A stretch of DNA of 64,000 bases from Coriobacteriaceae bacterium (GTDB lineage: Bacteria > Actinomycetota > Coriobacteriia > Coriobacteriales > Coriobacteriaceae): the NCBI GenBank assembly GCA_902363125.1, contig CABIZD010000002.1, positions 124,001 to 188,000 on the forward strand. The letters run 5' to 3'. The notes under the pieces are model-generated. The model had not been told where the DNA came from. It saw only the letters and a list, made by a program, of their open reading frames with translations, and searched no databases. Every line of letters starts with the position of its first letter. Position 1 is the stretch's first letter. Both the position numbers and the translations under genes were made by a program. Shown here in pieces: positions 17,091 to 36,443 of this stretch.

Positions 17091-17120
17091 CCGTGGGAAA
17101 TCGAAATCGCACAACGGAAA

Positions 17121-17142: not shown

Positions 17143-17145
17143 TTC

Positions 17146-19047: not shown

Positions 19048-19481
19048 GGCGAGCCCTCCACGAGCGAGTCGGCGCCGATGCGACCGAGCTCCGCCGCCAT
19101 CTCTCGGGCCGCGGCGTTCACGTCGGCGAGCTCGCGCTCGATCGTCGGGACGCTCTCCGCGACGAGGTCGCGGTCGACGCGCCCGTGGCGGGCGTGGAAG
19201 TTGATGAGGTTCATCGCGTGCACGGCCTGGTTGTAGTGGTAGCCCCACTTCGTGAGCTCTCGCGACATCGCCCACAGGGCCCTGCGGTCCACGAGTATGC
19301 GGTGCTCGTCTCCCGCGTTGGCCTCCGTCGACAGCGGTATGCGAACGAGGTAGCGCAGGTACTCCGACTTGCTGAGACCGGCGCGCTCGCACCGCTCGCA
19401 GAGCGCGTCGTAGTCGCCTCCCTCCATGCGGAACGTGATGCGGCGCTCCTTGCCTTTGGCGGCGCCGGCTTCCTCTTCCAT
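19035..19481 (-). CDS. MobC-like relaxosome protein
   Basis: The 148-residue product has an N-terminal ribbon-helix-helix (ERRITFRMEGGDYDALCERCERAGLSKSEYLRYLV) and the typical MobC middle (RELTKWGYHYNQAVHAMNLINFHA). MobC proteins bind near oriT and help the relaxase open the nick site. AGGAAAGG precedes the ATG at 19481. It is the first gene of the leftward mobilization operon, directly downstream of the palindrome-rich region. Confidence 0.85.
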   Translation of the reverse strand: MEEEAGAAKGKERRITFRMEGGDYDALCERCERAGLSKSEYLRYLVRIPLSTEANAGDEHRILVDRRALWAMSRELTKWGYHYNQAVHAMNLINFHARHGRVDRDLVAESVPTIERELADVNAAAREMAAELGRIGADSLVEGSPCRS

Positions 19482-19500
19482 GGCGGATTCCTTTCCTCGG

Positions 19501-19690
19501 GCCCGCCGCGCGGCGGGCGCGTCTCTCTAGGGGCGCGGGGGATCCCCCGCAGGCGGCGGCCCGGCTCGGGCGCCGCCTCTGGGACCGGGCCTCGCGAAAG
19601 CGGGCTCCCAAACGGCCCGCGGCATGACGGGTCCGAGGCCGCCCGGTCCCCAAGTGCTATGGACGCCCGACGCGATGTCGGACGCCATAG
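19501..19690. other. Candidate origin of transfer (oriT): cluster of five inverted repeats
   Basis: Five inverted repeats lie in 190 bp without a gene: a perfect 18-bp palindrome at 19501-19518; a perfect 16-bp palindrome GCGGGGGATCCCCCGC at 19535-19550; AGGCGGCG/CGCCGCCT at 19551-19578; GGGACCGGGC/GCCCGGTCCC at 19581-19590 and 19641-19650; and CTATGG/CCATAG with an inner CCGAC/GTCGG at 19657-19690. The region is directly upstream of mobC and the relaxase. oriT function is inference from position and structure; I cannot name the nick site. Confidence 0.6.
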
Positions 19691-19691
19691 G

Positions 19692-20648: not shown

Positions 20649-21399
20649 GGGACACCTCGTCTGCGAGCGCCTCGTAGTCGCGCGCGGGGCGGCTCCCCGG
20701 CTCGAAGGCCGCCACCGGCTTCCACTGCCAGCTGCCCTCGCAGACCTTGCTGCTCGCATGTATGACCGTCTCGAACTGCTCGTCCGGGAAGAACCCGTCG
20801 AGCACGGCCGCGCCCGTGGCCTCGGCGTTGGTCATGCGGCCGGGAACGCACGTGCGCAGTATCCTCCAGCGGGGCGTGGGCATACGGAGCGCATCTGCGA
20901 TGGAACGCGTCGCCTCGACGGTGAGCGCCGTGCCGCGCATCACGGTGGAGTCGAGCTTCACGGGGATGGCGACCATGCCGCCCTCCGCTGCGGCGAGGTA
21001 GGCGTTGAAGGCGAGCCTGCGCATCACGGGGCTGCAGTCGATGAGGCAGACGTCGTAGGAGCCCGAAGCGTCGTCGAGGGCGAACTTGAGGCGCTGCTCG
21101 CGCAGGAACATCTCGTTCTGGTCGACGAGGTCGATGGTCGAGGCCACCACGTCGAGGTTCTCCGCTGCCGCATAGGCGACCTCCTCCACGGGCGCGCCGC
21201 CGTAGAGCAGCTCGACCGACGTGCGTCGCTCGGAGGCGGCGCGGTCGTAGAGGCCGAAGAAGTCGGTGGCGGACGCCTGCGGGTCGAGGTCGACGAGCAG
21301 GGTCCGAAGGCCCCGGGCGGCGAAGATGGCCGCCAGGTTGACGGCGGTCGTCGTCTTGCCGACGCCGCCCTTGTAGTTGGAAATGGCTATCGTGCGCAT
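20635..21399 (-). CDS. ParA-family partition ATPase
   Basis: The 254-residue protein begins MRTIAISNYKGGVGKTTTAVNLAAIF, the deviant Walker A motif of ParA/Soj, followed by LLVDLDPQASAT and VCLIDCSPVM. It has the length of a small chromosomal-type ParA with no N-terminal HTH. The ATG at 21399 follows GAGAGGA. It heads the parAB operon, which starts near a large palindrome and CGTACG-type operators (21482-21548). Confidence 0.93.
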   Translation of the reverse strand: MRTIAISNYKGGVGKTTTAVNLAAIFAARGLRTLLVDLDPQASATDFFGLYDRAASERRTSVELLYGGAPVEEVAYAAAENLDVVASTIDLVDQNEMFLREQRLKFALDDASGSYDVCLIDCSPVMRRLAFNAYLAAAEGGMVAIPVKLDSTVMRGTALTVEATRSIADALRMPTPRWRILRTCVPGRMTNAEATGAAVLDGFFPDEQFETVIHASSKVCEGSWQWKPVAAFEPGSRPARDYEALADEVSRELA

Positions 21400-21481
21400 G
21401 GGTCGCGTCCTCTCTAGCGTGGGGCGCGCCTCGCCGCATCCGGTCCGGCGCGCCCCGAGTCTCGGAGCGTCGGGACTAAAC

Positions 21482-21548
21482 CGTACGGATTTGTCCGACA
21501 AGCGGAGTGTACCACGAAAACGTACGTACTTGTACGTTTTCGTGGTAC
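21482..21548. promoter_or_regulatory. Operator region upstream of parA
   Basis: The region has a near-perfect dyad with 17-bp arms GTACCACGAAAACGTAC / GTACGTTTTCGTGGTAC (21509-21525 and 21532-21548) and two words of the type CGTACG-N-A-Y-TTGT: CGTACGGATTTGT at 21482 and CGTACGTACTTGT at 21521. A related word, CGTACGAATCTGT, lies in the int/xis promoter at 36703. The ICE regulator encoded at 36789 is the likely reader. Confidence 0.6.
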
Positions 21549-21603
21549 AAGGGCCGGGTTTCGGGGAAAACCGGCCCCGGGAGCCCGGGGCCGGGCGCGC
21601 CGC

Positions 21604-21975
21604 CTAGGAGAGCGGCTCCATCTCGCCGAAGCAGTTGACGTGGTGGCGCAGGAGCGCTCGGTTCTCCTTGACGACCATCATCGCCACCTCGTCGAAGCGG
21701 ACCGGGGTGTCGGCGTAGTCGTCGCCGTTGCCGGCGAGCCACGTCGCCGCCAGCGCCTCGCGCATCCCGCGCGCCCTGTGGGCCTCGGGGAATCCGTCCG
21801 TCCCGATGCGGACCGTGGCGTCGACGAACACCAGGGTCCCGTCCTCGTCCACCGCCACGAGGTCGATCCCGCCGATGCCCTCGGGCCCCTGCCAGGCCTC
21901 GTCGACGATCTCGTAGCCCTTGCGCTCGAGGAAGGTCCTGACCGCGCCCATCGCCTTTTCCTTCATGTTGTTCAT
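21604..21975 (-). CDS. YraN/UPF0102-like protein with altered nuclease residues
   Basis: The 123-residue protein resembles the YraN family of restriction-endonuclease-fold proteins: AMGAVRTFLERKGYEIVDEAW, then GGIDLVAVDEDGTLVFVDATVR. In canonical YraN the last block reads FVEVKTR, with catalytic Glu and Lys; here the positions are Asp and Thr, so nuclease activity is doubtful. ATG 21975 is chosen for its length; ATG 21966 is also possible. It is transcribed away from the defence-type operon and toward parA. Its role in the element is unknown. Confidence 0.65.
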   Translation of the reverse strand: MNNMKEKAMGAVRTFLERKGYEIVDEAWQGPEGIGGIDLVAVDEDGTLVFVDATVRIGTDGFPEAHRARGMREALAATWLAGNGDDYADTPVRFDEVAMMVVKENRALLRHHVNCFGEMEPLS

Positions 21976-22521
21976 GTCTTGCTTCTTAGACTCTGAGGCC
22001 CGCCCCTGTGGCGTGCCTTGCGCCGCGTGAGTCGCATACAGCGCGGGCGTGCCTGCAAGGGAGGAAGCGAAGTCGGGCGTGGTTATAGGAATCTCCCGAC
22101 GGCAGTTTTTCGCGTTGTTCGCGCGCGGAGCGCATGGGGCGAAGAACCCGAAAAAGTGTCGCGGCCCTTGCTGGCCGCCCGCCGGCGTGCGACCCTGCGC
22201 GCCCAAGGAGCGCCAGGGCGGGTTTCGGATCGGAGGGGCGGAGGCGTGCGGCATGGAATCGGGCGTGGGCGCCGAGGCCTTCCGGGCATTGGATGCGACC
22301 CGTCGGCGGTTGCCGGGGCACTCGCGAGGGTTTACGTCGGAACGTCACGGCGAGGACGGAGGCGGGCTCCCGAGTCGCGACGCTTCGGTCCGAAGCAGGA
22401 CGGCGTTTCCCGCGCCGCTTGCGGCCGATATGCGCACGGGACCGCCGGCGGCGAGATGGTTCTCTATGCGGAACGGCTACGGTGCTGCGCAATACGTCCG
22501 TTGGGAGAAGGAGGCAAGCAG
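21976..22521. other. GC-rich 546-bp region without a supported gene
   Basis: Several frames are open here because of high GC, but none has a good start signal or a recognisable product. There is potential for local hairpins around 22090-22170 (for example near GTTCGCGCGCGGAGCGC). It is the gap between leftward yraN-parAB and the rightward cargo, so promoters for both directions must lie here. A structured RNA is possible but I cannot name one. Confidence 0.4.
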
Positions 22522-22794
22522 ATGTTGGGCTACGAAGAGAAGTTGGAGCGCATCGAGCTCGTCGATGCCGTGAGTGATGTCGGGAGGCTGGCAAGGGGCT
22601 TGGACCAGCTGCTCGAGTCCCTGGCGCACGCCGACCAGCTGGACCCGCTCGACGTCGGGGGAATCCTGGCCCTGAGGTCGATAAGCGAGAGGTGCGCCGA
22701 GCGCATCGGCGACGCTGCGCGAATCTTGGAGGCTCAGAGCGAGGTTCTCTACGCCGAGGAGCGGGCAAACGCCAAGCCTTGCGGAAACCAATGA
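22522..22794 (+). CDS. Small helical protein of unknown function
   Basis: The 90-residue product is mostly helical and acidic (MLGYEEKLERIELVDAVSDV, RLARGLDQLLESLAHADQL). An AGAAGGAGG site lies just upstream of the ATG. It precedes the cargo operon by 166 bp, and a promoter lies between them, so it is probably a separate unit. No family is recognised. Confidence 0.65.
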   Translation: MLGYEEKLERIELVDAVSDVGRLARGLDQLLESLAHADQLDPLDVGGILALRSISERCAERIGDAARILEAQSEVLYAEERANAKPCGNQ

Positions 22795-22884
22795 GCGCGG
22801 CTCGAATCGGAAGCTGTTCTCTGAACCAACTGGGGTTTCCTTTGCCACTCGCATAAAGCTTGGAAAGCGGCTGTCCCTCTTATT

Positions 22885-22916
22885 TCCAGTACCGCGCCGT
22901 ACCGCTGCGTTATAAT
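22885..22916 (+). promoter_or_regulatory. Promoter for the defence-type operon
   Basis: A perfect -10 hexamer TATAAT at 22911-22916 lies 45 bp before the first gene of the cargo operon (GTG 22961). The -35 region is poor (TCCAGT or nearby), which suggests help from an activator or weak constitutive expression. Confidence 0.55.
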
Positions 22917-22960
22917 GCTGAAAACGCATTTGTATTGCATTTCGAGGGATTGAGGCGCAA

Positions 22961-23173
22961 GTGTCTGACGGTTACAAGGAACTCATCAAGGGCAACCCCG
23001 ACGAGACCGAGATCAGGAGCTTCCTGGTAAACGGCGATCAGGTATCCGTGACCCTGCGCATCCCCGATACTCTGCGTGACGCGGCCAAGGAGGAGGCAGC
23101 CCTTCGGGGCATGAGCTTCTCCGCCTTCGTGCGTACGTGCATGATCGAAGAGCTCGCGAAGAAGGGACAATAG
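22961..23173 (+). CDS. Ribbon-helix-helix-like small regulator heading the defence-type operon
   Basis: The 70-residue protein has VSVTLRIPDTLRDAAKEEAALRGMSFSAFVRTCM, a beta-strand plus two helices typical of CopG/Arc-type ribbon-helix-helix proteins, and a short N-terminal extension. GTG 22961 follows GAGG. The methyltransferase begins 3 bp after its stop. It may repress the operon, as controller proteins do in restriction-modification systems, or be the antitoxin-like partner of a later gene. Both are inference. Confidence 0.72.
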   Translation: MSDGYKELIKGNPDETEIRSFLVNGDQVSVTLRIPDTLRDAAKEEAALRGMSFSAFVRTCMIEELAKKGQ

Positions 23174-23176
23174 CCC

Positions 23177-25333
23177 GTGACCGAGCCAACCCACGACATC
23201 TCGGTCGAAGGCTTCATAGAGTCCTTCGACCGACGATACCCGACTTTCATTCTCAAGACGTTGCTGTGCGACCGCACTACGGGGTGCAACATCATATGGG
23301 CCGACAACGAATACGAGGCTCTGGGCGACGGCTACATGGGCGACGACGAGATAACCGTCGAGAAAATCACGGGAATGAACTCCGGCGTCATCAAGCCGCG
23401 CATCGCAAAGGAGCAGGAGAAACAATCCCAGCGCACCAAGAGCCGGGCTGAAGTGTTCACTCCGTCCTGGCTATGCAACCAGATGAATAACGACCTGGAC
23501 GAAACCTGGTTCGGCCAGCGCGACATCTTCAACACTGAGACCGTTGCGGATAATGGCGCCAATACATGGACGACGACTGATAATTCGATTGAATTTCCCA
23601 AATCCAAGGGACGCGGCTGGCGAGCATACGTGGAAGCGCCGCGCCTCGAGATCACGTGCGGCGAGGCGCCGTTCGTGTGCTCGCGCTACGACACCGTGAC
23701 GGGTGACGAGCTGCCCGTAGGCGAGCGCGTGGGCTTCCTTGACCGCAAACTGCGCGTCGTGACTGAGAAGACCAAGACTCGCAAGGAGTGGGTGCGCCGC
23801 GCCCTCGACGCGCTGCGCGCGACGTACGGCTTCGAGTACCAGGGCGACAACCTGCTTATCGCTCGAATCAACGTGCTCGAGACGTTCGCCGAACATCTAC
23901 GCAATCGCTGGGGTTCTGACCCCCAACAGGACGAGCTCGAGCAGGCAGCATGGATCGTTTCCTGGAACTTCTGGCAGATGAACGGCTTCACCGACGCCGT
24001 GCCCACCAACAAAATGGGCGCTGAGGTGGAGTCGACCTTGGGGACGTTCGAGGAGCCCGAGCCGGAGCCGATTCAACCGTCGCTTTTCGATCTGTTTGAT
24101 GACGTATTCCCCGACGAGACAACCGAAGAGACCAATGAAGAGGAGCCGAAGGAAACGGTTCCTCTCTGCGTGATATACGACTGGCAGAATGGCGAGCCTT
24201 TCGAGTTCGCCTCATTGAAAGGTAAGGCAGCAGCCATGGGAAAGAAGTTCTATGCGGTGATCGGAAACCCCCCCTACCAAGAGAGTCGCGAAACAACGAA
24301 AGATATGCCCGTCTACAATGTTTTTATGGATGCGGCATATGAGGTATCAGACAGGGTGGAGCTTATCACGCCTGCCCGTTTCCTATTCAACGCTGGAGCA
24401 ACTCCTAAAACATGGAATCAAGCAATGCTCAGTGACGAACATTTCAAGGTTTTGCACTATGAGCCCGATAGCTCCAAAGTCTTCTGTGGGGCCGAAATTA
24501 AAGGTGGGGTTGCCATACACTATCGAGACTCGCAAGCGATATTGGGGCCCATCGACACCTTTACTTCTTATCCGGAGTTGAATTCGATTTCACAGAAGGT
24601 TAAGGCTCTCTTCATCTCGGATCTTGGCAGCATAATGTATCCGTATTCAACATACACGCTTGCAAATCGGCTGTGGGAGGATTTTCCGAACCGCAAAGCC
24701 GAAGTTGAGTACATTGCAAAAAATCGAAATAAATTATCAAAAGATGAGAAAGAGGGTAAGTTAAGCAATCTCCGGATTATTACAACTAATATATTCGACT
24801 TACTTGCTTTGCCTAATTGGGATGAGAATCTATTTTTTGATGCAAAACCGAACGACGAGCACGAATACTGCAGAATCTTGGGGCGTGCAAATGGACAACG
24901 ATGCTCCAAGTGGATTCGTTCGAGTTACATTGATCTCGCAGAGAATTACAACAAGTATAAAGTTCTGATCACTGCTGTTAACGGAAGCGGTAAATTCGGA
25001 GAGACATTGAGCACACCCATTATTGGCACGCCTGAACTGGGGTATACGCAGACATTCCTTGGGATTGGCTCTGTTGATTCCGAAGAAGAAGCACAGGCTA
25101 TCTATAAGTACATCTGCACGAAGTTCGTCCGGGCTATGCTTGGAGTTCTTAAAATTACGCAACACAACCCTCCTGAAAAATGGAAGTTTGTCCCTCTCCA
25201 GGACTTCACCGTTAACTCTGACATCGACTGGACGCAGTCTGTGGCCGACATCGATCGTCAGCTCTATGCGAAGTACGGCCTCGACGAAGAGGAAATCGAG
25301 TTCATCGAATCCCACGTGAAGGAGATGGACTAG
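23177..25333 (+). CDS. Eco57I-type N6-adenine DNA methyltransferase
   Basis: The 718-residue protein has AEVFTPSWLCNQM (motif X type), LEITCGEAPF (motif I type, about residues 158-166) and the catalytic NPPY motif in YAVIGNPPYQES (364-367), the signature of N6-adenine methylases of the Eco57I/type IIG class. The C-terminal half, where the target-recognition domain should lie, is coded by distinctly AT-richer DNA (about 24260-25180) than its two ends. No nuclease motif is evident, so restriction must come from a partner gene. The GTG start lies 3 bp after the ribbon-helix-helix gene, and the helicase starts 2 bp after its stop. Confidence 0.88.
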   Translation: MTEPTHDISVEGFIESFDRRYPTFILKTLLCDRTTGCNIIWADNEYEALGDGYMGDDEITVEKITGMNSGVIKPRIAKEQEKQSQRTKSRAEVFTPSWLCNQMNNDLDETWFGQRDIFNTETVADNGANTWTTTDNSIEFPKSKGRGWRAYVEAPRLEITCGEAPFVCSRYDTVTGDELPVGERVGFLDRKLRVVTEKTKTRKEWVRRALDALRATYGFEYQGDNLLIARINVLETFAEHLRNRWGSDPQQDELEQAAWIVSWNFWQMNGFTDAVPTNKMGAEVESTLGTFEEPEPEPIQPSLFDLFDDVFPDETTEETNEEEPKETVPLCVIYDWQNGEPFEFASLKGKAAAMGKKFYAVIGNPPYQESRETTKDMPVYNVFMDAAYEVSDRVELITPARFLFNAGATPKTWNQAMLSDEHFKVLHYEPDSSKVFCGAEIKGGVAIHYRDSQAILGPIDTFTSYPELNSISQKVKALFISDLGSIMYPYSTYTLANRLWEDFPNRKAEVEYIAKNRNKLSKDEKEGKLSNLRIITTNIFDLLALPNWDENLFFDAKPNDEHEYCRILGRANGQRCSKWIRSSYIDLAENYNKYKVLITAVNGSGKFGETLSTPIIGTPELGYTQTFLGIGSVDSEEEAQAIYKYICTKFVRAMLGVLKITQHNPPEKWKFVPLQDFTVNSDIDWTQSVADIDRQLYAKYGLDEEEIEFIESHVKEMD

Positions 25334-25335
25334 CT

Positions 25336-28300
25336 ATGGCAAGTATCGACATCTCCCAAATCATCGAGACCACCGCTCCCGCGGTGCCACAAATCTATGC
25401 CTACACCACGCCCGAGATCGCCCGCCACAACGGGTGGACCAAGATCGGTTACACCGAGCAGGACGTGCGCGAGCGCATCAAGCAGCAGACGCACACCGCC
25501 GACGTGCAATGGCACCTGGAGTGGAGCGGCAACGCCACGTGGGAGCACCGCGCAGGCACGTTCCACGACACTGACTTCCACGCATACCTCGAGAAGCAGG
25601 GCGTCGAGCGCGAGCCCAAGAAGGAATGGTTCAAGATCAGCGGCGAGGAATCTCACCAGCAGTTCTACCGGTTCCGCGACACCGACGGCGTGCTGGACGC
25701 ACCCGGCGCCGCCTCCTACACCCTGCGCGCCGAGCAGCAGCGCGCAGTGGAGCAGACGGGAGCCTTCGCCCGCGCCCATTGGGACGAGGGCGGCGCGCAC
25801 GGCGGCGAGTTCCTGTGGAACGCAAAGCCGCGCTTCGGCAAGACGCTCACCGCATACGACCTGTGCCGCGACATCGGCGCGCAGAAGGTGCTCATCGTCA
25901 CCAACCGCCCCGCCATCGCCAACTCTTGGTACGACGACTACGTGAAGTTCGTCGGAGTAGAGGGCGGCTACCGCTTCATCAGCGGAGTGGACGCCCTTGC
26001 CGGCAAGCCTTACTGCCTCAACCGCGAGGAGTACCTTCGCGCCATTCGCAACGACTCGGAAGGCCCCAAGGGATTCATCGAGTTCGTAAGCCTTCAGGAC
26101 CTCAAGGGCTCCATCCGCTTCGGCGGCATCTATCAGAAGCTCGACGAGGTTGCCGATCTCACCTGGGACGTGCTCATCATCGACGAGGCGCACGAGGGCG
26201 TGGACACCTTCAAGACCGACGTGGCGTTCGACCACATCAAGCGCCGCTTCACACTGCACCTCTCCGGCACGCCTTTTAAGGCCATCGCCAACGAGAAGTT
26301 CGCCGACGACGCCATCTACAACTGGACATATGCCGACGAGCAACAGGCCAAACGCGACTGGCCGGCCGACTCCGAGCAGCCGAACCCCTACGCCAATCTC
26401 CCCAAGCTCAACCTGCTTACTTACCAGATGAGCGACATCGTCGAGCAGGAGGCCCGCGGCGGCATGGAGATCGACGGCGAGCAGACCGAGTTCGCCTTCG
26501 ACCTCAACGAGTTCTTCTCGACCAAGCAGAACGGCGGCTTCGTGCATGACGCCGACGTGGACAAGTTCCTCGACGCGCTCACCACGCAGGAGAAGTTCCC
26601 GTTCTCGACGCTCGGGCTGCGCGACGAGCTGCGCCACACGTTTTGGATGCTCAACCGCGTCGACTCCGCCCACGCGCTTGCCAAGAAGCTGAAGACGCAC
26701 CCCATCTTCGGGGACTACGAGGTGGTGCTTGCCGCCGGCGACGGCAAGATCGACGCCGACGACGAGAACGAGAAGTCGCTCGACAAGGTGCGCCGCGCGA
26801 TCAAGGACCACGACAAGACCATCACCCTTTCGGTCGGCCAGCTCACCACGGGCGTGACCGTGCCGGAGTGGACCGCCGTGCTCATGCTCTCGAACATGGC
26901 GAGCCCCGCACTGTACATGCAGGCGGCCTTCCGCAGCCAGAACCCGTGCCTGTTCGACCTGGGCGGCGGCAACTACGCGCGCAAGGAGAACGCCTACGTC
27001 TTCGACTTCGACCCGGCGCGCACGCTCACTATCTTCGAGCAGTTCGCCAACGACCTGTACGGGGAGACCGCGCGCGGCGGCGGCGACGTGGAGACGCGCG
27101 AGCGCCACATCCGCCAGCTGCTGAACTTCTTCCCCGTCTATGGCGAGGACGATGAGGGGCAGATGGTCGAGCTCGACGCCGAGCAGGTGCTCAGCGTGCC
27201 GAGGCGCATCCATGCCCGCGAGGTGGTCAGACGCGGCTTCATGAGCAACTTCCTGTTCCAGAACATCGCGAGCGTCTTCCGCGCGCCGGCAGAGGTCGTG
27301 GAGATCATCCAGCGCTTCGATCCCTACGAGCAGGGCAAGGCACAGAACGCCGAGAAGAACAAGGTCGAGATCGATGAGGGCACGGCCGACGAGCTCTCCA
27401 TCAACGACGAGGGCGAGGTGGAGATCCCTGACGAGCAGGTCGTAGGCAAGGCTGCGGACATCTTCGGGCCGAAGGTCTACGGCGACATCGCCGTCGAATT
27501 CTCAGGCCACATGGACGATATCGCGAAAGCCCACGAGGCCGATGACGACGACCGGGCGATGCTCGACAACCTCAAGGAGGCCTTCAAGCAGAGCGTGACC
27601 GCGCCTCTGGTACAGGCCGCCAAGGAGAGCTACGGCAGCGAGCTCAAGCCACGCCAGCAGCAGCAGATCGAGCGCAAGGTCCAGGCGGACGCCGACATCC
27701 AACTCAACCGCCAGGTCGGCGACTACCAGATCCAGGCGCGACGCATCGAGCAGTCGCGCAAGGACGAGCTCAAGGCGGCATCCAGCGCTGCCGAGCGGGC
27801 CGAGGTGAACCAGCGGCATGACGAGCAGAAGGCCGAGGCGTTCCAGGCGCTCGCCCGGAAGCTCGAGGACTCTCGCGAGGAGCTCGTGCAGAGCGCCGGC
27901 GAGACCGTGGTGCGCGAGGTGGAGACGGCAAAGAAGGAAGACGAGAAGCAGGGCATCGAGGACAATGTTCGCGCCCACCTGCGCGGCTTCTCGCGCACCA
28001 TCCCGTCGTTCCTCATGGCCTACGGCGAGGAAGGCACGACGCTCGCGAACTTCGACACTGTGATCCCCTCCGACGTCTTCCTGGACGTCACGAGCATCAC
28101 CGTGGACGAGTTCCGCTTCCTGCGCGATGGCGGTGACTACACCGACACCAAGACTGGCGAGGTTAAGCACTTCGTCGGGCACCTCTTCGACGAGGTGGTG
28201 TTCAACGACTCCGTAAGCGAGTTCATCAAGCTGCGCGAGCGCCTGGCCAACTACTTCGACGAGTCCCAGACGGAGGACATCTTCGACTACGTGCCGCCCC

Positions 28301-28719
28301 AGAAGACCAACCAGATCTTCACGCCGCGCAACGTCGTTGTCGAAATGGTGGACCTCTTCGAGAAGGAGAACCCAGGCTGCTTCGACGACCCGAGCCATAC
28401 CTTCGCCGACCTGTACATGAAGTCGGGCCTCTACATCACCGAGATCGTCAAGCGTCTGTACCGAAGCGAGGGCATGAAGGCCGCCTTCCCGGATGACCGC
28501 GAGCGCCTGGACCACATCCTGGAGCACCAGGTGTTCGGCATCGCGCCCACCAAGATCATCTACGAGATCGCCACGCACTTCATCCTGGGCTTCCACGACG
28601 AGGTCGGCCAGGGTTGCGACTCGAACTTCGAACTCGCGGACTCCGCGGAGCTTGCCAAGGAGGGCACGCTTGACGCCTATGTCGAGCGCGTCTTCGGGCC
28701 CAAGCTGGGCGAGGCGTAG
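25336..28719 (+). CDS. Large helicase with N-terminal GIY-YIG-like and C-terminal methylase-like domains
   Basis: This 1127-residue protein has three parts. Residues 18-110 (QIYAYTTPEIARHNGWTKIG, then YTEQDVRERIKQ) match the T5orf172/MUG113 branch of the GIY-YIG superfamily. Residues about 135-620 are a superfamily 2 helicase: motif I AKPRFGKTLTA, motif II IIDEAHEG, motif III LSGTPF, and motif VI-like FRSQNPC. Residues about 960-1090 resemble an N6-methylase N-terminal lobe (QIFTPRNVVVEMVDLF) in which the SAM motif is degenerate (DLYMKSGLYITEIV). A Lys/Glu-rich coiled coil (about 760-900) joins them. It is likely the DNA-translocating and possibly cutting subunit of a restriction system with the upstream methylase. 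Confidence 0.85.
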   Translation: MASIDISQIIETTAPAVPQIYAYTTPEIARHNGWTKIGYTEQDVRERIKQQTHTADVQWHLEWSGNATWEHRAGTFHDTDFHAYLEKQGVEREPKKEWFKISGEESHQQFYRFRDTDGVLDAPGAASYTLRAEQQRAVEQTGAFARAHWDEGGAHGGEFLWNAKPRFGKTLTAYDLCRDIGAQKVLIVTNRPAIANSWYDDYVKFVGVEGGYRFISGVDALAGKPYCLNREEYLRAIRNDSEGPKGFIEFVSLQDLKGSIRFGGIYQKLDEVADLTWDVLIIDEAHEGVDTFKTDVAFDHIKRRFTLHLSGTPFKAIANEKFADDAIYNWTYADEQQAKRDWPADSEQPNPYANLPKLNLLTYQMSDIVEQEARGGMEIDGEQTEFAFDLNEFFSTKQNGGFVHDADVDKFLDALTTQEKFPFSTLGLRDELRHTFWMLNRVDSAHALAKKLKTHPIFGDYEVVLAAGDGKIDADDENEKSLDKVRRAIKDHDKTITLSVGQLTTGVTVPEWTAVLMLSNMASPALYMQAAFRSQNPCLFDLGGGNYARKENAYVFDFDPARTLTIFEQFANDLYGETARGGGDVETRERHIRQLLNFFPVYGEDDEGQMVELDAEQVLSVPRRIHAREVVRRGFMSNFLFQNIASVFRAPAEVVEIIQRFDPYEQGKAQNAEKNKVEIDEGTADELSINDEGEVEIPDEQVVGKAADIFGPKVYGDIAVEFSGHMDDIAKAHEADDDDRAMLDNLKEAFKQSVTAPLVQAAKESYGSELKPRQQQQIERKVQADADIQLNRQVGDYQIQARRIEQSRKDELKAASSAAERAEVNQRHDEQKAEAFQALARKLEDSREELVQSAGETVVREVETAKKEDEKQGIEDNVRAHLRGFSRTIPSFLMAYGEEGTTLANFDTVIPSDVFLDVTSITVDEFRFLRDGGDYTDTKTGEVKHFVGHLFDEVVFNDSVSEFIKLRERLANYFDESQTEDIFDYVPPQKTNQIFTPRNVVVEMVDLFEKENPGCFDDPSHTFADLYMKSGLYITEIVKRLYRSEGMKAAFPDDRERLDHILEHQVFGIAPTKIIYEIATHFILGFHDEVGQGCDSNFELADSAELAKEGTLDAYVERVFGPKLGEA

Positions 28720-28722
28720 CGC

Positions 28723-30036
28723 GTGGTAGACGTAGTCGACAGCCGGCAGGGCGGACGTGCGGAGGCGGCGCGCGCGGCAGCTGATGCCGTGCGGCGGGAT
28801 GGCGCCGAGCTGTGCGCCCGCCTGGTCTTCCGCGCCTCGCGCAACGAACTGAGGCGCGCGGGGATCACCACGCCCATCGCTCTCTACGATGAGCTGAAGC
28901 AGGTCTTTTGGAACGCAGACGAGGGCGTCACCCTGGGCGACCACCTCTCTGTCGGGTTCGGCAAGGTCGACCGCCGCCGTCAGGTGCGCGCCTTCGCCGA
29001 ACGCCATGCGGACGAGCCCAGAAACGTCGCCGCGAAAGCCTATGAGCGCGAATACGGCTTCAGCGCAGGCATCGCCGCGATATGGCTCGACCTGTTCGCC
29101 GAGCCCGCGGACGTGAGCTTATCGGAGTGGCTTGGCGTCAAGGTCGCTGAATGCCCGACGGACGCCCCGGCCTCCCGTGCGGATGTGCCCGTAGCCCTCG
29201 ACACCGAGCGCGAGGCACCCGCCCTCGAGGGCTTCCTTGCCCGGGAGCTTGCCGGCCGCATCTGCGACGAAGGCCTCGTGCGCCGGCGCTTCGCCTTCGA
29301 GTTTCCCGACGATCCGCTCGAAGCGCTTGAGCACGGCATCGAGGATGCGGGCTACTACGAGGACCGCGGCTTGCTCTTCCGAGAAGGGAGCACCCCGAAC
29401 GACCACTTCACGCGGCTATTGGCCGAGCATCCGTCTTTCGCGAAGGGCGACGCCGGCTTCGAGAACGCCGTGTGGCAGCACCCCGCCTTCCGCCAGGTGC
29501 TGCGCCAGGCGCTTTCGGACCACCGCTTACTTCTCTACGAGGGCGACAGCTACATCTCGTTCTCGCGGCTGCACGACGTGCTAGACGCGCGCATGGCGGA
29601 CATCGAGTCGTACGCGCCCGCGGTGAGCGTGGATGCGCCCGAAGGCGAGCCCTTCACCGTGGCGAGCCTGCGCGCGGGCGGCGCCACTCCGCATCCGCTG
29701 TACGGGCTGGACATGCCCGACGACTTCTACGAGGGACTGCTCGACGCGGGAGGGCTCCTGCGCAGCTGTACGCTCGCCGGAACCAAGGTGTTCGTCGCCG
29801 GAGGCGAGGGGCGGCTTTCCGCAGCCGACCTCATCGAGTGGATCGTCGCCCACCATGAGGGAATCGAGCGCGATGACCTGCCGAGACTGCTCGCAAACGA
29901 TCTGGGCATTACGTGCCCGGCACCGCTTCTGACGACGACCATTTACAACTCCGACGTCTACTACGACGACATCGGGGACGCATATTACTCATCCATGGAG
30001 GCATGGAAGAAGGAGGCACGAAATGAGCTTGCTTGA
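28723..30036 (+). CDS. Unrecognised 437-residue protein of the defence-type operon
   Basis: I do not recognise this protein. It starts with GTG 4 bp after the helicase stop and overlaps the next gene by 14 bp, so it belongs to the operon. It is acidic, mixed helical, with segments such as YDELKQVFWNADEGVTLGDHLSVGFGKVDRR near the N-terminus and YEGDSYISFSRLHDVLDARMADIE in the second half. No nuclease, ATPase or membrane motif is visible. A role in target recognition or in bridging the methylase/helicase pair and the SNF2 half is possible but unsupported. Confidence 0.75.
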   Translation: MVDVVDSRQGGRAEAARAAADAVRRDGAELCARLVFRASRNELRRAGITTPIALYDELKQVFWNADEGVTLGDHLSVGFGKVDRRRQVRAFAERHADEPRNVAAKAYEREYGFSAGIAAIWLDLFAEPADVSLSEWLGVKVAECPTDAPASRADVPVALDTEREAPALEGFLARELAGRICDEGLVRRRFAFEFPDDPLEALEHGIEDAGYYEDRGLLFREGSTPNDHFTRLLAEHPSFAKGDAGFENAVWQHPAFRQVLRQALSDHRLLLYEGDSYISFSRLHDVLDARMADIESYAPAVSVDAPEGEPFTVASLRAGGATPHPLYGLDMPDDFYEGLLDAGGLLRSCTLAGTKVFVAGGEGRLSAADLIEWIVAHHEGIERDDLPRLLANDLGITCPAPLLTTTIYNSDVYYDDIGDAYYSSMEAWKKEARNELA

Positions 30037-31234
30037 GGAAGGGATCGCGACCGGCAACGTCCTGCCGACGGGGCGCAAGGAGAAGCACTCCATCGACAAC
30101 GTGACGCGCGACTTCGACATCTACCGCATCAAGTGCGACCTTCTGTTCTACAACGACCAGAATGATCGCATCGCCACTTGGGTAAGCGAGTACAACTCTG
30201 CGCAGAGTGCGGACCTGCTCGCCCTCGGCCGCGACGAATATAACGGCGTTATCGAGGACTTCATCGTCGAGAGCAACCCCGGCGCGCTCAGGAAGACCGA
30301 GAAGAGCATCGCCCTTCGCGGCCAGCTTAGGCCGGGCATCGTGCTCAACGATGGGCGCGTCATCGACGGCAACCGACGCCTGACCTGCGTCCGCCGCCTC
30401 GCGCGGGCGAACAACGAGGCGGGCTGGTTCGAGGCCGCCATTCTCGACGACGCCACCGGCAGCGACCCCAAGCGCATCAAGCTGCTCGAGCTCGCCATCC
30501 AGATCGGCGAAGAGGAGAAGGTGGCGTACGACCCCGTCGACCGACTCGTCGGCGTATACCGCGACGTGGTTAAGAACCACCTCATAACCCCTGCGGAGTA
30601 CGGCAACGCGACGGGCATGACCGAGGCGGAGGTGAAAAAACTCGTCGACCGCGCCCAGTACATGGAGGAGTTCCTCGAATTCTGCCAGGCCCCCGAGCAG
30701 TACCACCTCGCCCGCGCCCTCAAAGTCGATGGCCCCTTGGGCGAATTCAGCCGCGTGCTGAAGAAGTACGACAACAGGCGCGACAAGCAGCTTGTCAAAC
30801 GGCTCATGTTCGCCAACATGGTGGTGCAGCCCGAGGGCGACATCACCCGATACGTGAGAGACTTCGGCAGCGTGGCAGGCACGGATGCGGAGGCCGACTT
30901 CAAGGCCGCCGAGCTGCAGGCCATGTCCGAGCTCCTCGAGAAGATGGGTCCCGACGCCCTCACGCGCGAGAAGGTGAGCGAGCTGCGCTCGGACGGCAAC
31001 CTCGTCGACGGCTTCAAGCGCGCAGGCGACCGTGCAAGGGAAACCGTGCGCCGCGTCAAGCTCATGGACACGCCCGCCAAGAAATCCGCCGACTGCCTCT
31101 CCGAGCTCGAGAAGATCCTTCCCGAGATGCTCGACGTGCTGGGACCCGACGAGCTCGAGAAGGTGCGCCGTAACCTCGTTGCCGTCGCCGACAAGGTGGA
31201 AGAGCTGATCGGTGAGATCGATGAGCGCGCCTAG
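30023..31234 (+). CDS. ParB/sulfiredoxin-like protein of the defence-type operon
   Basis: The 403-residue protein contains RPGIVLNDGRVIDGNRRLTCVRRLA near residue 110, a ParB/Srx-superfamily DGNRR motif like the nucleotide-binding loop of ParB and of several defence proteins, followed by a helical domain (GMTEAEVKKLVDRAQYMEEFLEF) that could include an HTH. The C-terminal third is a long coiled coil. The gene overlaps both neighbours, so it is tightly coupled to the SNF2 helicase. It is distinct from the partition ParB at 19692. Nucleotide binding or hydrolysis is inferred. Confidence 0.75.
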   Translation: MSLLEEGIATGNVLPTGRKEKHSIDNVTRDFDIYRIKCDLLFYNDQNDRIATWVSEYNSAQSADLLALGRDEYNGVIEDFIVESNPGALRKTEKSIALRGQLRPGIVLNDGRVIDGNRRLTCVRRLARANNEAGWFEAAILDDATGSDPKRIKLLELAIQIGEEEKVAYDPVDRLVGVYRDVVKNHLITPAEYGNATGMTEAEVKKLVDRAQYMEEFLEFCQAPEQYHLARALKVDGPLGEFSRVLKKYDNRRDKQLVKRLMFANMVVQPEGDITRYVRDFGSVAGTDAEADFKAAELQAMSELLEKMGPDALTREKVSELRSDGNLVDGFKRAGDRARETVRRVKLMDTPAKKSADCLSELEKILPEMLDVLGPDELEKVRRNLVAVADKVEELIGEIDERA

Positions 31235-33164
31235 GGCCGTCGTCTGCTACGACGAGGCGCGGCCAGGCATGTACCTGCGCATCGAGGGGCAAGACGTCGC
31301 CTCGTTCATGGCCTCGGCCGCATGGCGCGCCTGGCTGTACTACCCGGCGAGCGCCGTAGACGGCACCGACCGCGACCGCATTCTGCTCGATGGCGACATG
31401 GGCCTTCGCGAGTGCCAGGACATGCTCGAGGCGATCATGGAGGCCGACGGCCACGGCGTCGAGGTTGCGCTGGACCCGAGCTTCGGCGCCTTCGTGAACG
31501 CCGGCGAGACTTACATCCGCGAGCGCTCCGAAGTGGGCTTGGCCATCAAGTCGCAGACCGCCGAGTGCATCGCCGACGACCCCCAGTTGGGGCCGCGCTT
31601 CCGGGAGTTCCGCGACGTGGTGAACGCATCGATGGTGCGCCCCCTGCGCGACCGGCAGATGCTCGACGCCTTCTTCATGGCGACGGTTGGGCGCGCGGCC
31701 GACTTCTCGGTGCCCGGCGCCGGCAAGACCGCGACGGTGCTCGGCGTGTTCGCCTACCTGCGCCATTTGGGCCACGCACGGCGCATCGTGGTGGTTTGCC
31801 CCAAGAACGGCTTCGAGTCGTGGGAGAAGGAATGGGTCGCCACCTTCGGGGATAAGCTCCCTTTGAGCTGCTTCTCGCTGGGAGACCCCGCCATAGCGGC
31901 GATGTCGACCGAGCGCAGGCGCAACGCGCTATCGCTCGACAGCGGCGCATGCAACCTGTTCACGTTCAACTACGAGTCGCTCTCGGGCTACGTGCGGGAG
32001 CTGCATTCCATCATCCCCGACCAGACCCTGCTCGTCTTCGACGAGGTGCATCGGGTGAAGGCCATCGGCGGCAGGCGCGCGGAAGCCGCGCTCGAGGCGG
32101 CCGACGGCGCGAAGTTCGTGATCGCCCTTACGGGAACGCCCATCCCGAACACCTACCAGGACATCTACAACCTGCTGCACATCCTGTATCCCGAGGACTA
32201 CGACACGTTCTTCGGCTACGAGCCGGGCGAGCTCCGCGCGCCCGATGCGGACCTCCAGGCAAGCCTCAACGACAGCCTGGCGCCCTTCTTCTGCCGAACG
32301 AACAAGGATGAGCTCGGCGTGCCGCGCCCGGAGCCCGACGAGATCGTGGAGGTCGAGGCGACGCCCGATGAGGACACGTTGCTGCGAGTCCTGTACGCGT
32401 CTTGTCCCAACGCGCTCGCGAGGATCATACGCACCCTGCAGCTCGAGAGCGATCCCGAGATGCTCTGCTCTGCAGTGGACCCAGGCGACCTCGAGTACGT
32501 GCTCGACCAGGTCGGCGACGACTACTCGGACATCGACTACGTCGACTTCTCGCAGACGTTCTACGAGGCCATCGAGCGAAGCCGCCCGAGCTCGAAGCTC
32601 GTGGCGTGCGAGCGGCTCGTGGAGCGCGTCGTCGCCGAAGGCCGCCCCGTCATAGTATGGTGCATCTTCGTCCGCAGCATCAGCAACCTCCGCCGCGACC
32701 TCGCCGCCATGGGGATTCCGGTAGAGGCGATCTACGGCGCCACTCCTCAGGAAGAGCGACGCGAGATTCTGGACGACTTCCGCGCGGGGCGCTTCAGGGT
32801 GCTCGTGACCAACCCGCAGACGCTTGCCGAGTCGGTCTCTCTGCACAGCGTCTGTCACGACGCGGTGTATTTCGAGTACAGCTACAACTTGGTGCACCTG
32901 CTGCAGTCGAAGGACCGCATACACCGTCTGGGCCTGCCCGACGACCAGAAGACGCGCTACTACTTCATGCGAGAGAAGTTCATGCGCGACGGCAGGGAGC
33001 TATCCCTGGACGCCGTGATCTACGACCGCTTGAAGGAGAAGGAGCAGACGATGCTCGACGCCATCGACCGCGGCTGCCTCGAGGGCGGCTACCTCGATGA
33101 CGAGGACCTGCGTATCGTCTTCGAGCGCCTGCTGGGAGAAGATGCCAAGAGCCTGGAATACTAA
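31221..33164 (+). CDS. SNF2/SWI2-family helicase
   Basis: The 647-residue protein has the SNF2 motif set: FSVPGAGKTATVLGV (I), IVVVCPKNGFESWEKE (Ia), LLVFDEVHRVKAIGG (II, DEVH), IALTGTPIPNTYQD (III), and NLVHLLQSKDRIHRLG (VI) with the Q-x-x-x-R-x-x-R arginine finger. Residues 1-150 form an extra N-terminal domain of unknown type. SNF2 translocases are found in DISARM, type I-like and Zorya-like defence systems. Its start overlaps the ParB-like gene; ATG 31221 is preferred over GTG 31212. Confidence 0.88.
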   Translation: MSAPRAVVCYDEARPGMYLRIEGQDVASFMASAAWRAWLYYPASAVDGTDRDRILLDGDMGLRECQDMLEAIMEADGHGVEVALDPSFGAFVNAGETYIRERSEVGLAIKSQTAECIADDPQLGPRFREFRDVVNASMVRPLRDRQMLDAFFMATVGRAADFSVPGAGKTATVLGVFAYLRHLGHARRIVVVCPKNGFESWEKEWVATFGDKLPLSCFSLGDPAIAAMSTERRRNALSLDSGACNLFTFNYESLSGYVRELHSIIPDQTLLVFDEVHRVKAIGGRRAEAALEAADGAKFVIALTGTPIPNTYQDIYNLLHILYPEDYDTFFGYEPGELRAPDADLQASLNDSLAPFFCRTNKDELGVPRPEPDEIVEVEATPDEDTLLRVLYASCPNALARIIRTLQLESDPEMLCSAVDPGDLEYVLDQVGDDYSDIDYVDFSQTFYEAIERSRPSSKLVACERLVERVVAEGRPVIVWCIFVRSISNLRRDLAAMGIPVEAIYGATPQEERREILDDFRAGRFRVLVTNPQTLAESVSLHSVCHDAVYFEYSYNLVHLLQSKDRIHRLGLPDDQKTRYYFMREKFMRDGRELSLDAVIYDRLKEKEQTMLDAIDRGCLEGGYLDDEDLRIVFERLLGEDAKSLEY

Positions 33165-33234
33165 GAGGCCGAACGGCGCACTGACGATATTGGCTCATAA
33201 GTAACAACTGCGAAGGAAAGATAGGGCTTTAAGG

Positions 33235-34938
33235 ATGGATGCAGGAAAATCTACGATAAGCGGCGTGTTCAACGGATCGCGCCTGCTCGAAATACCCTTC
33301 TACCAAAGGGCGTACGTCTGGGGAGAAGAGCAGTGGGAGCGCTTCCTTGGCGATATGGAGTTTGTCACGGCCTCGAAGCGGCCCTACTTCCTGGGCTCCA
33401 TCATCCTGAAGCAGGAGTCTTCCGGCTACACCTGGTCCGAAGTGTCGGAGGTTCGCACCGTCATCGATGGCCAGCAGCGCCTCACGACCATGGTCATCTT
33501 CTTCAAGGCGCTTTGCGCGAAAATCGACGCCAACAGGCTGTTCGAGCGAGATTTCGTTCTAGAGACTGGCGAAGTCGCCTTGAGGCACGGCAAATATGAC
33601 CGGCAGGATTTCGAGAAGGTCGTCAATGCAACGGGCAGCGAGCCCGTCGAGGGTTCCTCGGCCATCATCGGCGCCTACAACTACTTCCTCAAGAACATCG
33701 ACCCGGAAAAGGTCGACAGGAACACGATCAAGTCGAACGTTCAGTTCGTCTGCATCGACCTAACCGAGGGCGAGGACGAGCAGCAGATATTCGACACCAT
33801 CAACTCGCTCGGCGTGCGCTTGACCACGGCAGAGCTCCTGAAGAACTACTTCTTCAACCGCGAGAACGAGCAGGCGTTCAAGGATAGCTGGGAAGACGTC
33901 TTCGAGCCGACGGCAGAGAAGAAGAGCTTTTGGGACCAGGAGGTCGTCACCGGCCGCATCAAGCGAACGCTTATCGACCTCTTCTTCGACGCGTTCCTGC
34001 AGATCATGGTGCAAGATAAGGCGCGCTGCGTGACCGCCGAGGACAAGCTCTACTACTCGCGCACCTCGAATCTCTTCCAGTCCTACAAGGATTTCATCAG
34101 CAGGTACTGCGACGGGGGCAAAGACGAGGTCCTGAATGCAATGAACGCCTATGCCGCAGTGTTCGAGTCGACGTTCGACCCCACCTGCTGCGATAGGAAC
34201 GTCCCGCCCGCACCGTCGACCGAGCGCATGAACGTGCTGATATTCGGCCTTAAGAACTCGACGCTCATCCCATACGTGCTGTACGTCCGAAAGAGCGTGG
34301 AATCGCCAGATGAGCAGGCGAAGGTCTTCGCCACGCTCGAGAGCTACATCGTCCGCCGCATGCTGGTTCGGGCGACCACCAAGAACTACAACAGGCTGTT
34401 CACCTCGCTGATCCTAAACGAGGTGAAGGACGCTGAGGCCCTGAGGAAGGCTCTTGAAGCCAATGATGAGGCGACGACCTACATGCCCGGCGATGCTGAG
34501 GTTCGCTCGGCGTTCGAGGAATCGTGCCTGTACAACCTCCAGTCCAAGGGCGTCCTCTATCTGTTGGAAAGCGCCATACGCCCGGGCATGAGCAGCACGG
34601 CCCTGCTCGGGTTCAACCAGTACACCCTCGAGCACATGATGCCCAAGAAGTGGCGCAACAAATGGGGAGCCCTCGACGAGGAGGCCGCGACGCGAAGGGA
34701 CAGGAAGCTCCTCACGCTCGGCAATCTGGCCATCATCACGCATTCGCTCAACGCCTCTATCCGCGACGCCGATTGGACCACCAAGAAGCAGGGAAAGGGG
34801 TACAAGGACGGCCTTGCCCTCTGCGCCGCCGGCCTTGCGACGATGGCCGGCGCCTTGGAGAAAGAATCTTGGGGCGAGGACGACATCGCCGATCGCGCCG
34901 AATGGCTTGCGAACAAGGCGTTGGAGGTCTGGCGATAG
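33235..34938 (+). CDS. DUF262-DUF1524 (GmrSD-like) nuclease
   Basis: The 567-residue protein has the DUF262 signature near the N-terminus (IPFYQRAYVWGEEQWERFL and TVIDGQQRLTTM) and a DUF1524 HNH-type domain near the C-terminus (YTLEHMMPKKWRNKW, then LGNLAIITHSLNAS). This is the arrangement of GmrS-GmrD fused proteins, type IV restriction enzymes that use a nucleotide and cut modified DNA; DUF262 shares the ParB/Srx-like fold. It lies 70 bp after the SNF2 gene on the same strand, so it may be part of the operon or an adjacent independent defence gene. Confidence 0.88.
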   Translation: MDAGKSTISGVFNGSRLLEIPFYQRAYVWGEEQWERFLGDMEFVTASKRPYFLGSIILKQESSGYTWSEVSEVRTVIDGQQRLTTMVIFFKALCAKIDANRLFERDFVLETGEVALRHGKYDRQDFEKVVNATGSEPVEGSSAIIGAYNYFLKNIDPEKVDRNTIKSNVQFVCIDLTEGEDEQQIFDTINSLGVRLTTAELLKNYFFNRENEQAFKDSWEDVFEPTAEKKSFWDQEVVTGRIKRTLIDLFFDAFLQIMVQDKARCVTAEDKLYYSRTSNLFQSYKDFISRYCDGGKDEVLNAMNAYAAVFESTFDPTCCDRNVPPAPSTERMNVLIFGLKNSTLIPYVLYVRKSVESPDEQAKVFATLESYIVRRMLVRATTKNYNRLFTSLILNEVKDAEALRKALEANDEATTYMPGDAEVRSAFEESCLYNLQSKGVLYLLESAIRPGMSSTALLGFNQYTLEHMMPKKWRNKWGALDEEAATRRDRKLLTLGNLAIITHSLNASIRDADWTTKKQGKGYKDGLALCAAGLATMAGALEKESWGEDDIADRAEWLANKALEVWR

Positions 34939-35372: not shown

Positions 35373-36443
35373 TTACCCCCTCGCCCCGTCGAGCGCGGCT
35401 GCCATCTCGTCCTGCTTCGTGGGGAACAGGTGCGCGTATCGGTAGGTGATGTCCACCGCCTCGTGGCCCATGCGCTCGGCGATTGCCAGCGCGGAGAAGC
35501 CCATCTCGATCAGCAGGCTCACGTGGCTGTGGCGTATGTCGTGCACGCGGATGCGCTTCACGCCCGACGCCTTGCACCCTCGCTCCATCTCGTGGGCCAG
35601 GAAGTGCTTGGTCACGGCGAACAGGCGCTCGTCGGGGGCGACGTCGTCGCGCATCTCGATGAAGTCCGCCATCTCGTCGCGCAGGAAGGCGGGCATGACG
35701 ATCGTGCGCACCGACTTTGGCGTCTTGGGGTCGGTCACGGTGTCCACGCCGTGGAGGCTCTGGTACGACTTGTTGATGCGCAGCCGCGAAGTCTCCAGCA
35801 TGAAGTCGGACGGCGTGAGCGCCAGGAGCTCGCCGCAGCGGATGCCCGTCCAGTAGAGCAGCTCGAAGGCGTGGAACGACAGCGGCTTGTCCATGACGGC
35901 CTCGCTGAACCTCAGGTACTCGTCCTTGGTCCAGAACTGCATCTCGCCGCCCTTCTTCGAGCCTATTTTGTCGACCCTGCGCACCGGGTTGTCGGCGAGG
36001 CCGTAGTAGCGCTCGGCGTGGTTGAAGATGGCGTTGAGCTGGTTGTTCACCGTGCGCAGGTACGTCGGCGCCCAGGGCTTCCCGTCGGCGTCCCGGTGCT
36101 CGGTGAGCTCGTTTTGCCACCTGATGACGTCGATCGGCCTCACGTCGCACATGCGCATGTCCCCGAAGAACGGCACGAGCTTGTCGTTGATGATGTACTC
36201 CTTGGTGATCCACGTGTGCTCGCGTACGCGCGGCTTCACCTCGGAGGCGTACACCTCCACGAACTCGGAGAACGTCATGTCCATGGCCCCGCCGTTAAGG
36301 CTCTTGAACTGGCTCTCCCACACTGCGGCCTCCACCTCGGAGGAGAAGCCGCGCTTCGTCTTGTGGCGCTTCGAGCCGCGGGCGTCGCGGTAGTAGCACT
36401 GCACGTAGAACGTGCCGTTGTTGCCATCCTTGTACACGGGCAT
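35373..36443 (-). CDS. Tyrosine integrase
   Basis: The 356-residue recombinase has an AP2-like N-terminal arm-binding region (YVQCYYRDARGSKRHKTKRGF), a SAM-like core-binding domain (about 55-155), and the catalytic domain with Arg202 (YWTGIRCGELLAL), a Lys in DPKTPKSVRTI, His301-x-x-Arg304 (HDIRHSH), His327 (GHEAV) and Tyr336 (TYRYAHLF). All expected residues are present, so it should be active. It catalyses integration and excision of the element and lies closest to the guaA junction, as in most Tn916/Tn1549-like and phage-like integration modules. Confidence 0.95.
   Translation of the reverse strand: MPVYKDGNNGTFYVQCYYRDARGSKRHKTKRGFSSEVEAAVWESQFKSLNGGAMDMTFSEFVEVYASEVKPRVREHTWITKEYIINDKLVPFFGDMRMCDVRPIDVIRWQNELTEHRDADGKPWAPTYLRTVNNQLNAIFNHAERYYGLADNPVRRVDKIGSKKGGEMQFWTKDEYLRFSEAVMDKPLSFHAFELLYWTGIRCGELLALTPSDFMLETSRLRINKSYQSLHGVDTVTDPKTPKSVRTIVMPAFLRDEMADFIEMRDDVAPDERLFAVTKHFLAHEMERGCKASGVKRIRVHDIRHSHVSLLIEMGFSALAIAERMGHEAVDITYRYAHLFPTKQDEMAAALDGARG

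Follow-up and report, generated by a model that had tools for sequence, protein, structure and literature searches.

Organization of the operon and its close relatives

We analysed a 64,000-nucleotide window of a Coriobacteriaceae bacterium genome (contig CABIZD010000002.1, positions 124,001 to 188,000), in which seven open reading frames (ORFs) on the + strand, designated R, M, H, U, P, S, and G in order, span positions 22961-34938. These ORFs are separated by 3 bp (R/M), 2 bp (M/H), and 3 bp (H/U), overlap by 14 bp (U/P) and 23 bp (P/S), and leave a 70-bp gap between S and G, confirming the tight one-strand arrangement that an initial annotation, made from the sequence alone, had described. 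Pfam matches likewise bore out its naming of M as an Eco57I-type methylase, S as an SNF2 helicase, and G as a DUF262-DUF1524 protein. Our best reading, to which we give about an even chance of being the right explanation as a whole, is that the operon is a restriction–modification (RM) locus of three layers, namely an R-M-H core, a U-P-S add-on, and G as cargo, and that P and S, with or without U, form a portable clamp–motor module taking plug-in readers and nucleases. The order R-M-H-U-P-S is kept in all seven related loci, which come from five genera (closest operon relatives in Collinsella, Olsenella, Paraeggerthella, Bifidobacterium, and Arcanobacterium), were retrieved with U so that its presence is by construction, and include three near-copies (L001-L003). 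H, P, and S are each at least 95% identical in six of these seven, and the recurrence of the gene order exceeds chance.

The core is formed by M and H. M (23177-25333, + strand, 718 residues) is an N6-adenine methylase according to both Pfam (Eco57I, PF07669, E 2.6e-14) and PADLOC, with motifs EVFTP at residue 92 and NPPY at residue 364 and a C-terminal target recognition domain (TRD). The nucleotide similarity of M to its relatives breaks off over ~24.3-25.1 kb, and residues 368-718 share merely 52% identity with L001-L003; the TRD thus appears to be swapped among relatives. H (25336-28719, + strand, 1127 residues) combines a GIY-YIG nuclease (T5orf172, E 4.6e-5) with a superfamily 2 (SF2) helicase (ResIII, E 2.7e-11), both above Pfam cut-offs, and ends in a methylase-like region with QIFTP at 993 and FADLYMKSGLY at 1023. 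Since no NPP motif occurs anywhere in H, it looks like a nuclease–helicase with a methylase remnant, the methylase role falling to M; the GIY-YIG and helicase parts of the initial description of H are therefore retained, and its methylase-like part is reduced to a remnant. H is 91-97% identical in all seven relatives, and because it is conserved while the TRD of M changes, it most likely takes its target site from M, the usual pattern of a single RM core. As separate observations, G+C content is 52% in M vs 64-67% in H, U, P, and S, which is consistent with a swapped recognition domain, and in the Olsenella locus L003 (3327-6706) H is split over two frames, the other operon genes matching at full length.

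By its domain content, M-H is a two-gene relative of the type IIG/ISP-like enzymes, which are single chains: one PADLOC profile of 1359 residues (REase_MTase_IIG) is matched by regions distributed between M and H, with a predicted adenine methylase and variable TRD in M and predicted nuclease and ATP-dependent translocase domains in H. Unlike these enzymes, M and H are two ORFs separated by 2 bp, the nuclease is of the GIY-YIG type, and H has a methylase remnant alone. A PDB sequence search with M and H returned nothing at E 0.1. Relatives of H were found in 83 plasmid records, and among the 15 listed, six carry one Eco57I-domain annotation over the match.

The core also occurs by itself. H was detected in 21 of 396 Actinomycetota genomes and P in 5, including two weak matches (G099 and G240). 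Six H loci without P were retrieved, comprising four with H at 49-69% identity and two (L071, L072) with more distant relatives. Across the 17-18 kb read in each of the former four, M-like ORFs adjoin H every time and U, P, and S have no match, and in two of them (L068, L069) a GmrSD gene directly follows H. Given that M-H, with or without GmrSD, exists without U-P-S, the latter seems to have been inserted between H and G.

G (33235-34938, + strand, 567 residues) is a GmrSD (DUF262-DUF1524) type IV enzyme (GmrSD_N E 2e-34 and GmrSD_C E 3e-16 in Pfam) with DGQQR at 78 and the HNH-like motif EHMMP at 466. It follows S in five of the seven relatives and is missing in two. In Paraeggerthella L004, the element is recognizable on either flank at 91-93% identity, but the G slot (14585-17987) holds a PHP-ATPase ORF (TrlF-like by eye), a 143-residue ORF, and a DUF4268-like ORF (by eye). 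This comparison identifies G as a separable and exchangeable cargo gene, and the slot after S as its cargo site.

The P-S pair and its probable adaptor across restriction systems

P (30023-31234, + strand, 403 residues) is a ParB-fold protein with a ParB N-terminal domain carrying DGNRR, a helix-turn-helix (HTH), and a helical C-terminus. Neither P nor U has a match in Pfam or PADLOC at E 0.1, and a PDB search with the P profile gave weak matches alone (E 0.026 or worse). The AlphaFold model of P, with a predicted local distance difference test (pLDDT) score of 90.9, has ParB, Noc, and KorB as its nearest folds, and within it the ParB N-terminal domain and HTH fold are predicted to be present, so that the initial label of ParB-like held up. 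The neighbours of P are U and S, and no ParA gene adjoins it in the operon, unlike the arrangement expected of a partition locus. S (31212-33164, + strand, 650 residues) is an SNF2-family ATPase (SNF2 E 7e-14, Helicase_C E 2e-11 in Pfam) with SF2 motifs I, II, and VI of SNF2 type (FSVPG[AS]GKT, DE[VAS]H, LQSxDRI). The motor signatures of S and the GNRR of P are kept throughout the loci compared, the latter in 27 of 27. In a PLD scan that covered L025, L026, L027, and L030, a PLD domain was found in S above the Pfam cut-off in L025, L027, and L030, and just below it in L026 (26.4 vs 27).

Searches beyond the operon recovered P in 6 of 98 relatives in a genome survey, and in plasmid records P was found in 66 (E limit 1e-5) and S in 71 (E limit 1e-20), Enterococcus accounting for 52 in each search. 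We compared 28 loci, leaving out copies (L002, L003, L006, L033), loci with broken genes (L028, L034) or at contig ends (L036), and short loci of the same genomes; for L017, where P spans two ORFs, the larger one was used. P and S are adjacent in all 28, with gaps of -80 to +3 bp, and an RM, bacteriophage exclusion (BREX), or type IV gene lies within the stretch read in 25. These 25 comprise five M-H loci, two BREX, eight 5-methylcytosine (m5C) type II, seven type III, and three single cases, i.e. type I with McrBC-type genes (L029), McrBC-type genes (L024), and a homologue of a type II-enzyme match (L044). The type III arrangement, mod-res-P-S, was seen in Lactococcus, Limosilactobacillus, Lactiplantibacillus, Enterococcus, and viral contigs, and the m5C loci in Lactiplantibacillus, Priestia, Exiguobacterium, and Rhizobiales, where Vsr and a gene resembling Sau3AI or a type II enzyme frequently accompany the methylase. 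U-P-S sits at type 1 BREX clusters in G013 (BrxC, PglX, PglZ, BrxL) and G057 (BrxC, PglX, PglZ). P-S is co-oriented with nuclease genes both in mod-res-P-S and in L017, where S is followed by PglZ. As a control, a methylase or restriction gene was found in seven of seven P-S stretches vs one of seven distant 20-kb stretches of the same plasmids, a comparison with hand-picked positions, n=7, and incomplete PLSDB annotation.

The tree of the 28 S proteins mostly mirrors partner class: single clades are formed by the type III loci (95/94), by the M-H loci (100/100), and by all loci in which a U-type gene immediately precedes P (99/97), long branches making the finer joins unsure and near-copies adding to the clustering. 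A survey of viral contigs with S gave 101 relatives, of which 80 were kept as 79 distinct loci; 23 (L082-L104) were screened with home-made profiles, the other 56 (L105-L160) falling outside this screen. Three of the 23 (L102-L104) look like other SNF2 proteins, L102 having a weak P-like ORF after S. Among the remaining 20 (L082-L101), P was called beside S in 18, with no P called in L099, possibly because a longer ORF overlaps and masks it, and S cut by the contig end in L101. A methylase was seen in 18 of the 20 (mod in 4, dcm in 10, an ORF with SPPY by eye in 4), the exceptions being L088 and L095. Both counts include repeats (L082-L085 are L031-L034, L089 is L035, and other near-copies include L087/L088). 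Four of these loci (L098-L101) show the order SPPY ORF, small ORF of 153-154 residues, P, S, perhaps another partner class.

The third gene of the add-on, U (28723-30036, + strand, 437 residues), has a C-terminal domain (~206-437) that is also encoded immediately ahead of P in BREX, McrBC-type, and sigma-HTH loci. A profile of this domain, seeded with U, L015, L016, and L024 and run over 914 ORFs, matched solely proteins of P-S loci, the loci scanned being mostly P-S ones, with L067-L072, L073-L079, and a few short ones as those without P-S. Outside the seeds, the profile picked up sigma-HTH proteins, a Sau3AI-C-like protein, and a U-domain protein of the BREX locus L017 whose N-terminus is PglZ-like, resembling that of the PglZ encoded at the same locus (34% over 112 residues). 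In Priestia L027, the U C-terminal domain is fused to a protein matching the C-terminal half of Sau3AI (4pxg 313-476), which is the DNA-binding, non-catalytic half of that enzyme. The full-length Sau3AI of L030 has an ELK motif, which was not seen at the corresponding place in the L027 protein. Taken together, these architectures suggest that U is probably an adaptor coupling P-S to a given system. The U alignment covers proteins 76-95% identical to U, a deeper protein search having given almost solely close relatives. Among the seed loci, a 1224-residue protein without Pfam or PADLOC match precedes U-P-S in L016 (5554-9228), and a 1578-residue ORF in L015 (9751-14487) starts like this protein and ends in the U domain.

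Proposed mechanism and competing explanations

Starting from the layers, gene order, modularity, P and S folds, and adaptor-domain fusions established above, we propose an RM core strengthened by a clamp–motor module and accompanied by an independent type IV enzyme, an account that, taken whole, we hold with even confidence. M would methylate adenine at the host's own sites, and its TRD would also guide H, which by its domains may act as an ATP-driven GIY-YIG nuclease–translocase cutting unmodified DNA. P would be a ParB-type, nucleotide-gated DNA clamp, with CTP as our guess for the gating nucleotide, and S a double-strand DNA translocase coupled to it; the C-terminal domain of U would couple to P-S and its N-terminal part to M-H. 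We infer that U-P-S is loaded onto DNA at unmodified sites or close to them, moves along it, and clears bound proteins or hands DNA to the partner nuclease, leading to stronger restriction. In other loci, the same clamp–motor core would be paired with different readers (PglZ-like N-terminus, Sau3AI-C-like domain, sigma-like HTH) and different nucleases (Res, a type II enzyme, PglZ, or a PLD domain fused to S). G, for its part, would act independently as an additional barrier to phage DNA that carries modifications.

A broader and more tentative claim, which we consider possible and hold with clearly less confidence, is that P-S is an unnamed, widely shared core of ParB-fold nucleotide-gated clamp and SNF2 translocase, serving as an exchangeable engine for several RM classes and BREX. 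The U C-terminal domain would serve as the docking part for readers (PglZ-like, Sau3AI-C-like, sigma-HTH), cutters would come as a fused PLD or as neighbouring nucleases, and in dcm loci without other obvious cutter (L025, L027) P-S itself would be an ATP-driven clamp–motor restriction nuclease guided by a site reader. That the pair is found beside quite different restriction systems may point to a helper component common to them in bacterial immunity. RM classes and BREX are regarded as distinct machines; such a pair, largely co-evolving with the class of its partner, would, if real, be a common part of them, explain ‘hypothetical’ and ‘SNF2-related’ genes in RM operons, and link ParB clamps to immunity.

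Several observations weigh against the proposed account. The 28 loci were retrieved with P, S, or U, so that partner genes alone provide a test, and they are not independent, five being M-H loci and L031, L032, and L040 near-copies. Three of the 28 (L016, L023, L037) have no clear RM partner nearby, and in the S tree the m5C type II loci do not form one clade, requiring three changes, nor do the BREX loci, which require two. The DGNRR of P is unlike the GERR motif of ParB proteins, and the AlphaFold model of U is unusable (pLDDT 43.6). L027 carries the U C-terminal domain yet lies outside the U clade of the S tree, and because of this position its Sau3AI-C-like fusion may be separate. In addition, the type II-enzyme-like proteins encoded before P (four RA-type, L035, L088) may not be cutters, as a search of them with simple nuclease-motif patterns gave no catalytic motif.

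The module could also act in the opposite direction and protect the host, either by pulling the nuclease off unmodified self DNA at forks or by helping the methylase reach its sites, i.e. as a factor for restriction alleviation or methylation. SNF2 proteins can strip proteins from DNA, and most P-S partners are methylase-bearing systems. The passages considered of PMC5512222 further offer a phage precedent, with a DarB-like methylase paired with a SWI2/SNF2 motor and DdrB-like ParB domains also in polyvalent proteins. However, U-P-S in L024 adjoins McrBC-type genes in a stretch where no methylase motif was seen, it is found without a clear RM gene in L023 and L016, and P-S is co-stranded with nuclease genes, S even containing the PLD domain in L025, L027, and L030. 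We regard host protection as unlikely, and favour a restriction role because the module also adjoins McrBC-type genes and lies with, or is fused to, nuclease parts. Somewhat less probable still is a role as a fallback or abortive effector monitoring the RM system, the ParB/Srx-like protein nicking DNA or using up nucleotides once phage inhibits that system; NTPase and nicking activities of ParB/Srx proteins are reported in passages of PMC12839542 and PMC5512222, and the TrlF-like PHP-ATPase read by eye in the L004 slot after S would fit such a role.

Two further explanations appear considerably more remote. The initial annotation had offered either one new multi-component system or a methylase/helicase system with a separate ParB-SNF2 module and an adjacent type IV enzyme, with gene co-occurrence as the suggested check. 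The ordered R-M-H-U-P-S unit in seven relatives, its very high identity, and its one conserved promoter block would suit a single obligate system with a new mechanism. This is very unlikely, and we rejected it for the seven genes together, as M-H and M-H-GmrSD occur without U-P-S, G is missing in two of seven relatives, and homologs of P and S are regularly found without the methylase/helicase pair and with other systems; the co-occurrence thus extends to six genes in close relatives, and the second option is the one that fits. Least probable of all is that P-S serves to stabilize or partition mobile elements and lies near RM genes merely because both ride plasmids. P has a ParB fold, many P-S carriers are plasmids or viral/prophage contigs, and ParA genes occur within some kilobases of P in L026, L038, L039, and L044, but P-S overlaps or sits a few bases from res genes, the U domain is fused to PglZ-like and Sau3AI-C-like parts, the BREX P-S loci are on genome contigs, and RM genes were found in only one of the seven control stretches of the same plasmids.

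Regulation, genomic setting and known systems

The first gene of the operon, R (22961-23173, + strand), encodes a 70-residue ribbon-helix-helix-like regulator, judged by eye from its sequence and 91-99% identical in all seven relatives. Upstream of it lies a promoter/operator-like block (22908-22946, + strand) made of CGTTATAAT followed by a 23-bp block (22924-22946) with the repeat GCATTT...GCATTT. Both parts are identical in eight of eight loci (the window and the seven relatives, with their near-copies L001-L003), and the flanking bases diverge. Allowing up to 3 mismatches, a 19-base part of the block has a single occurrence in the window, against 0.01 expected, and no exact match to the operator-like block was found in viral contigs. 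The TATAAT (22911-22916) that had been proposed as the single promoter is kept in all eight loci, but a sigma-70 consensus scan lists no promoter there. This conserved block is a possible operator through which R would repress the operon and so regulate itself.

Upstream of the operon, 2502-6371 encodes a type IV secretion system coupling protein and 7078-9555 an ATPase that weakly matches the HerA type, and just downstream is the gene for a phage-type integrase (35373-36443, minus strand). The operon belongs to a conjugative mobile element framed by these conjugation genes and the integrase, and the 93% identity of window positions 18653-24459 to Paraeggerthella L004 suggests that this element is exchanged across families.

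Membership in BREX, DISARM (defence island system associated with restriction–modification), or Zorya was rejected: among the PADLOC matches listed for the six large operon proteins (best 25 of 40 for S, best 25 of 35 for G), motor similarity alone was found, linking S as a helicase to ZorD, DrmD, DpdE, and BrxH. These listed matches include no BrxC, PglZ, or BrxL and no DrmA, DrmB, or DrmC, and to that extent the earlier statement that the operon lacks DrmA/B, BREX, and Zorya hallmark genes holds. The likeness to DISARM is a weak DrmD-type SNF2 similarity of S (35.7 vs an NCBIfam cut-off of 610 bits), and that to type 1 BREX lies in the U-P-S genes at the G013 and G057 clusters. G resembles GmrSD/BrxU type IV enzymes in having both domains and DGQQR, but it is separable cargo and the remaining operon genes are not type IV.

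Other comparisons come from the literature. MORC-SWI2/SNF2 restriction operons, described in passages of PMC2292703 (Iyer, Abhiman and Aravind 2008), combine an SNF2 helicase with methylases, Vsr, and nucleases, and a Rhizobium P-S locus has an ‘ATP-binding protein’ that is putatively MORC-like; the term ‘ParB’, however, is absent from the text of that paper. P1 Dar/Ddr-type polyvalent proteins, according to passages of PMC5512222 on phage methylase-SNF2 dyads and ParB-like domains, share the methylase, SWI2/SNF2, and ParB-like parts, but are phage- or plasmid-borne fused proteins with DdrB-type ParB. The ParB and SNF2 passages of a BREX survey (PMC12839542) do not mention the P-S pair. More generally, no description of this pair in RM or BREX loci was found in the literature searched, i.e. 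passages of PMC12839542, PMC10853773, PMC10952713, PMC2292703, PMC3459991, PMC3710099, PMC5512222, and PMC12003011, with subscription papers and REBASE outside its scope. Finally, in the BREX loci L017 (11939-16212) and L080 (7897-16403), PglX lies in two separated ORFs of 830-841 and 322-324 residues, with a 774-bp gap between them in L017 and other ORFs between them in L080, which might reflect recognition-domain switching or damage.

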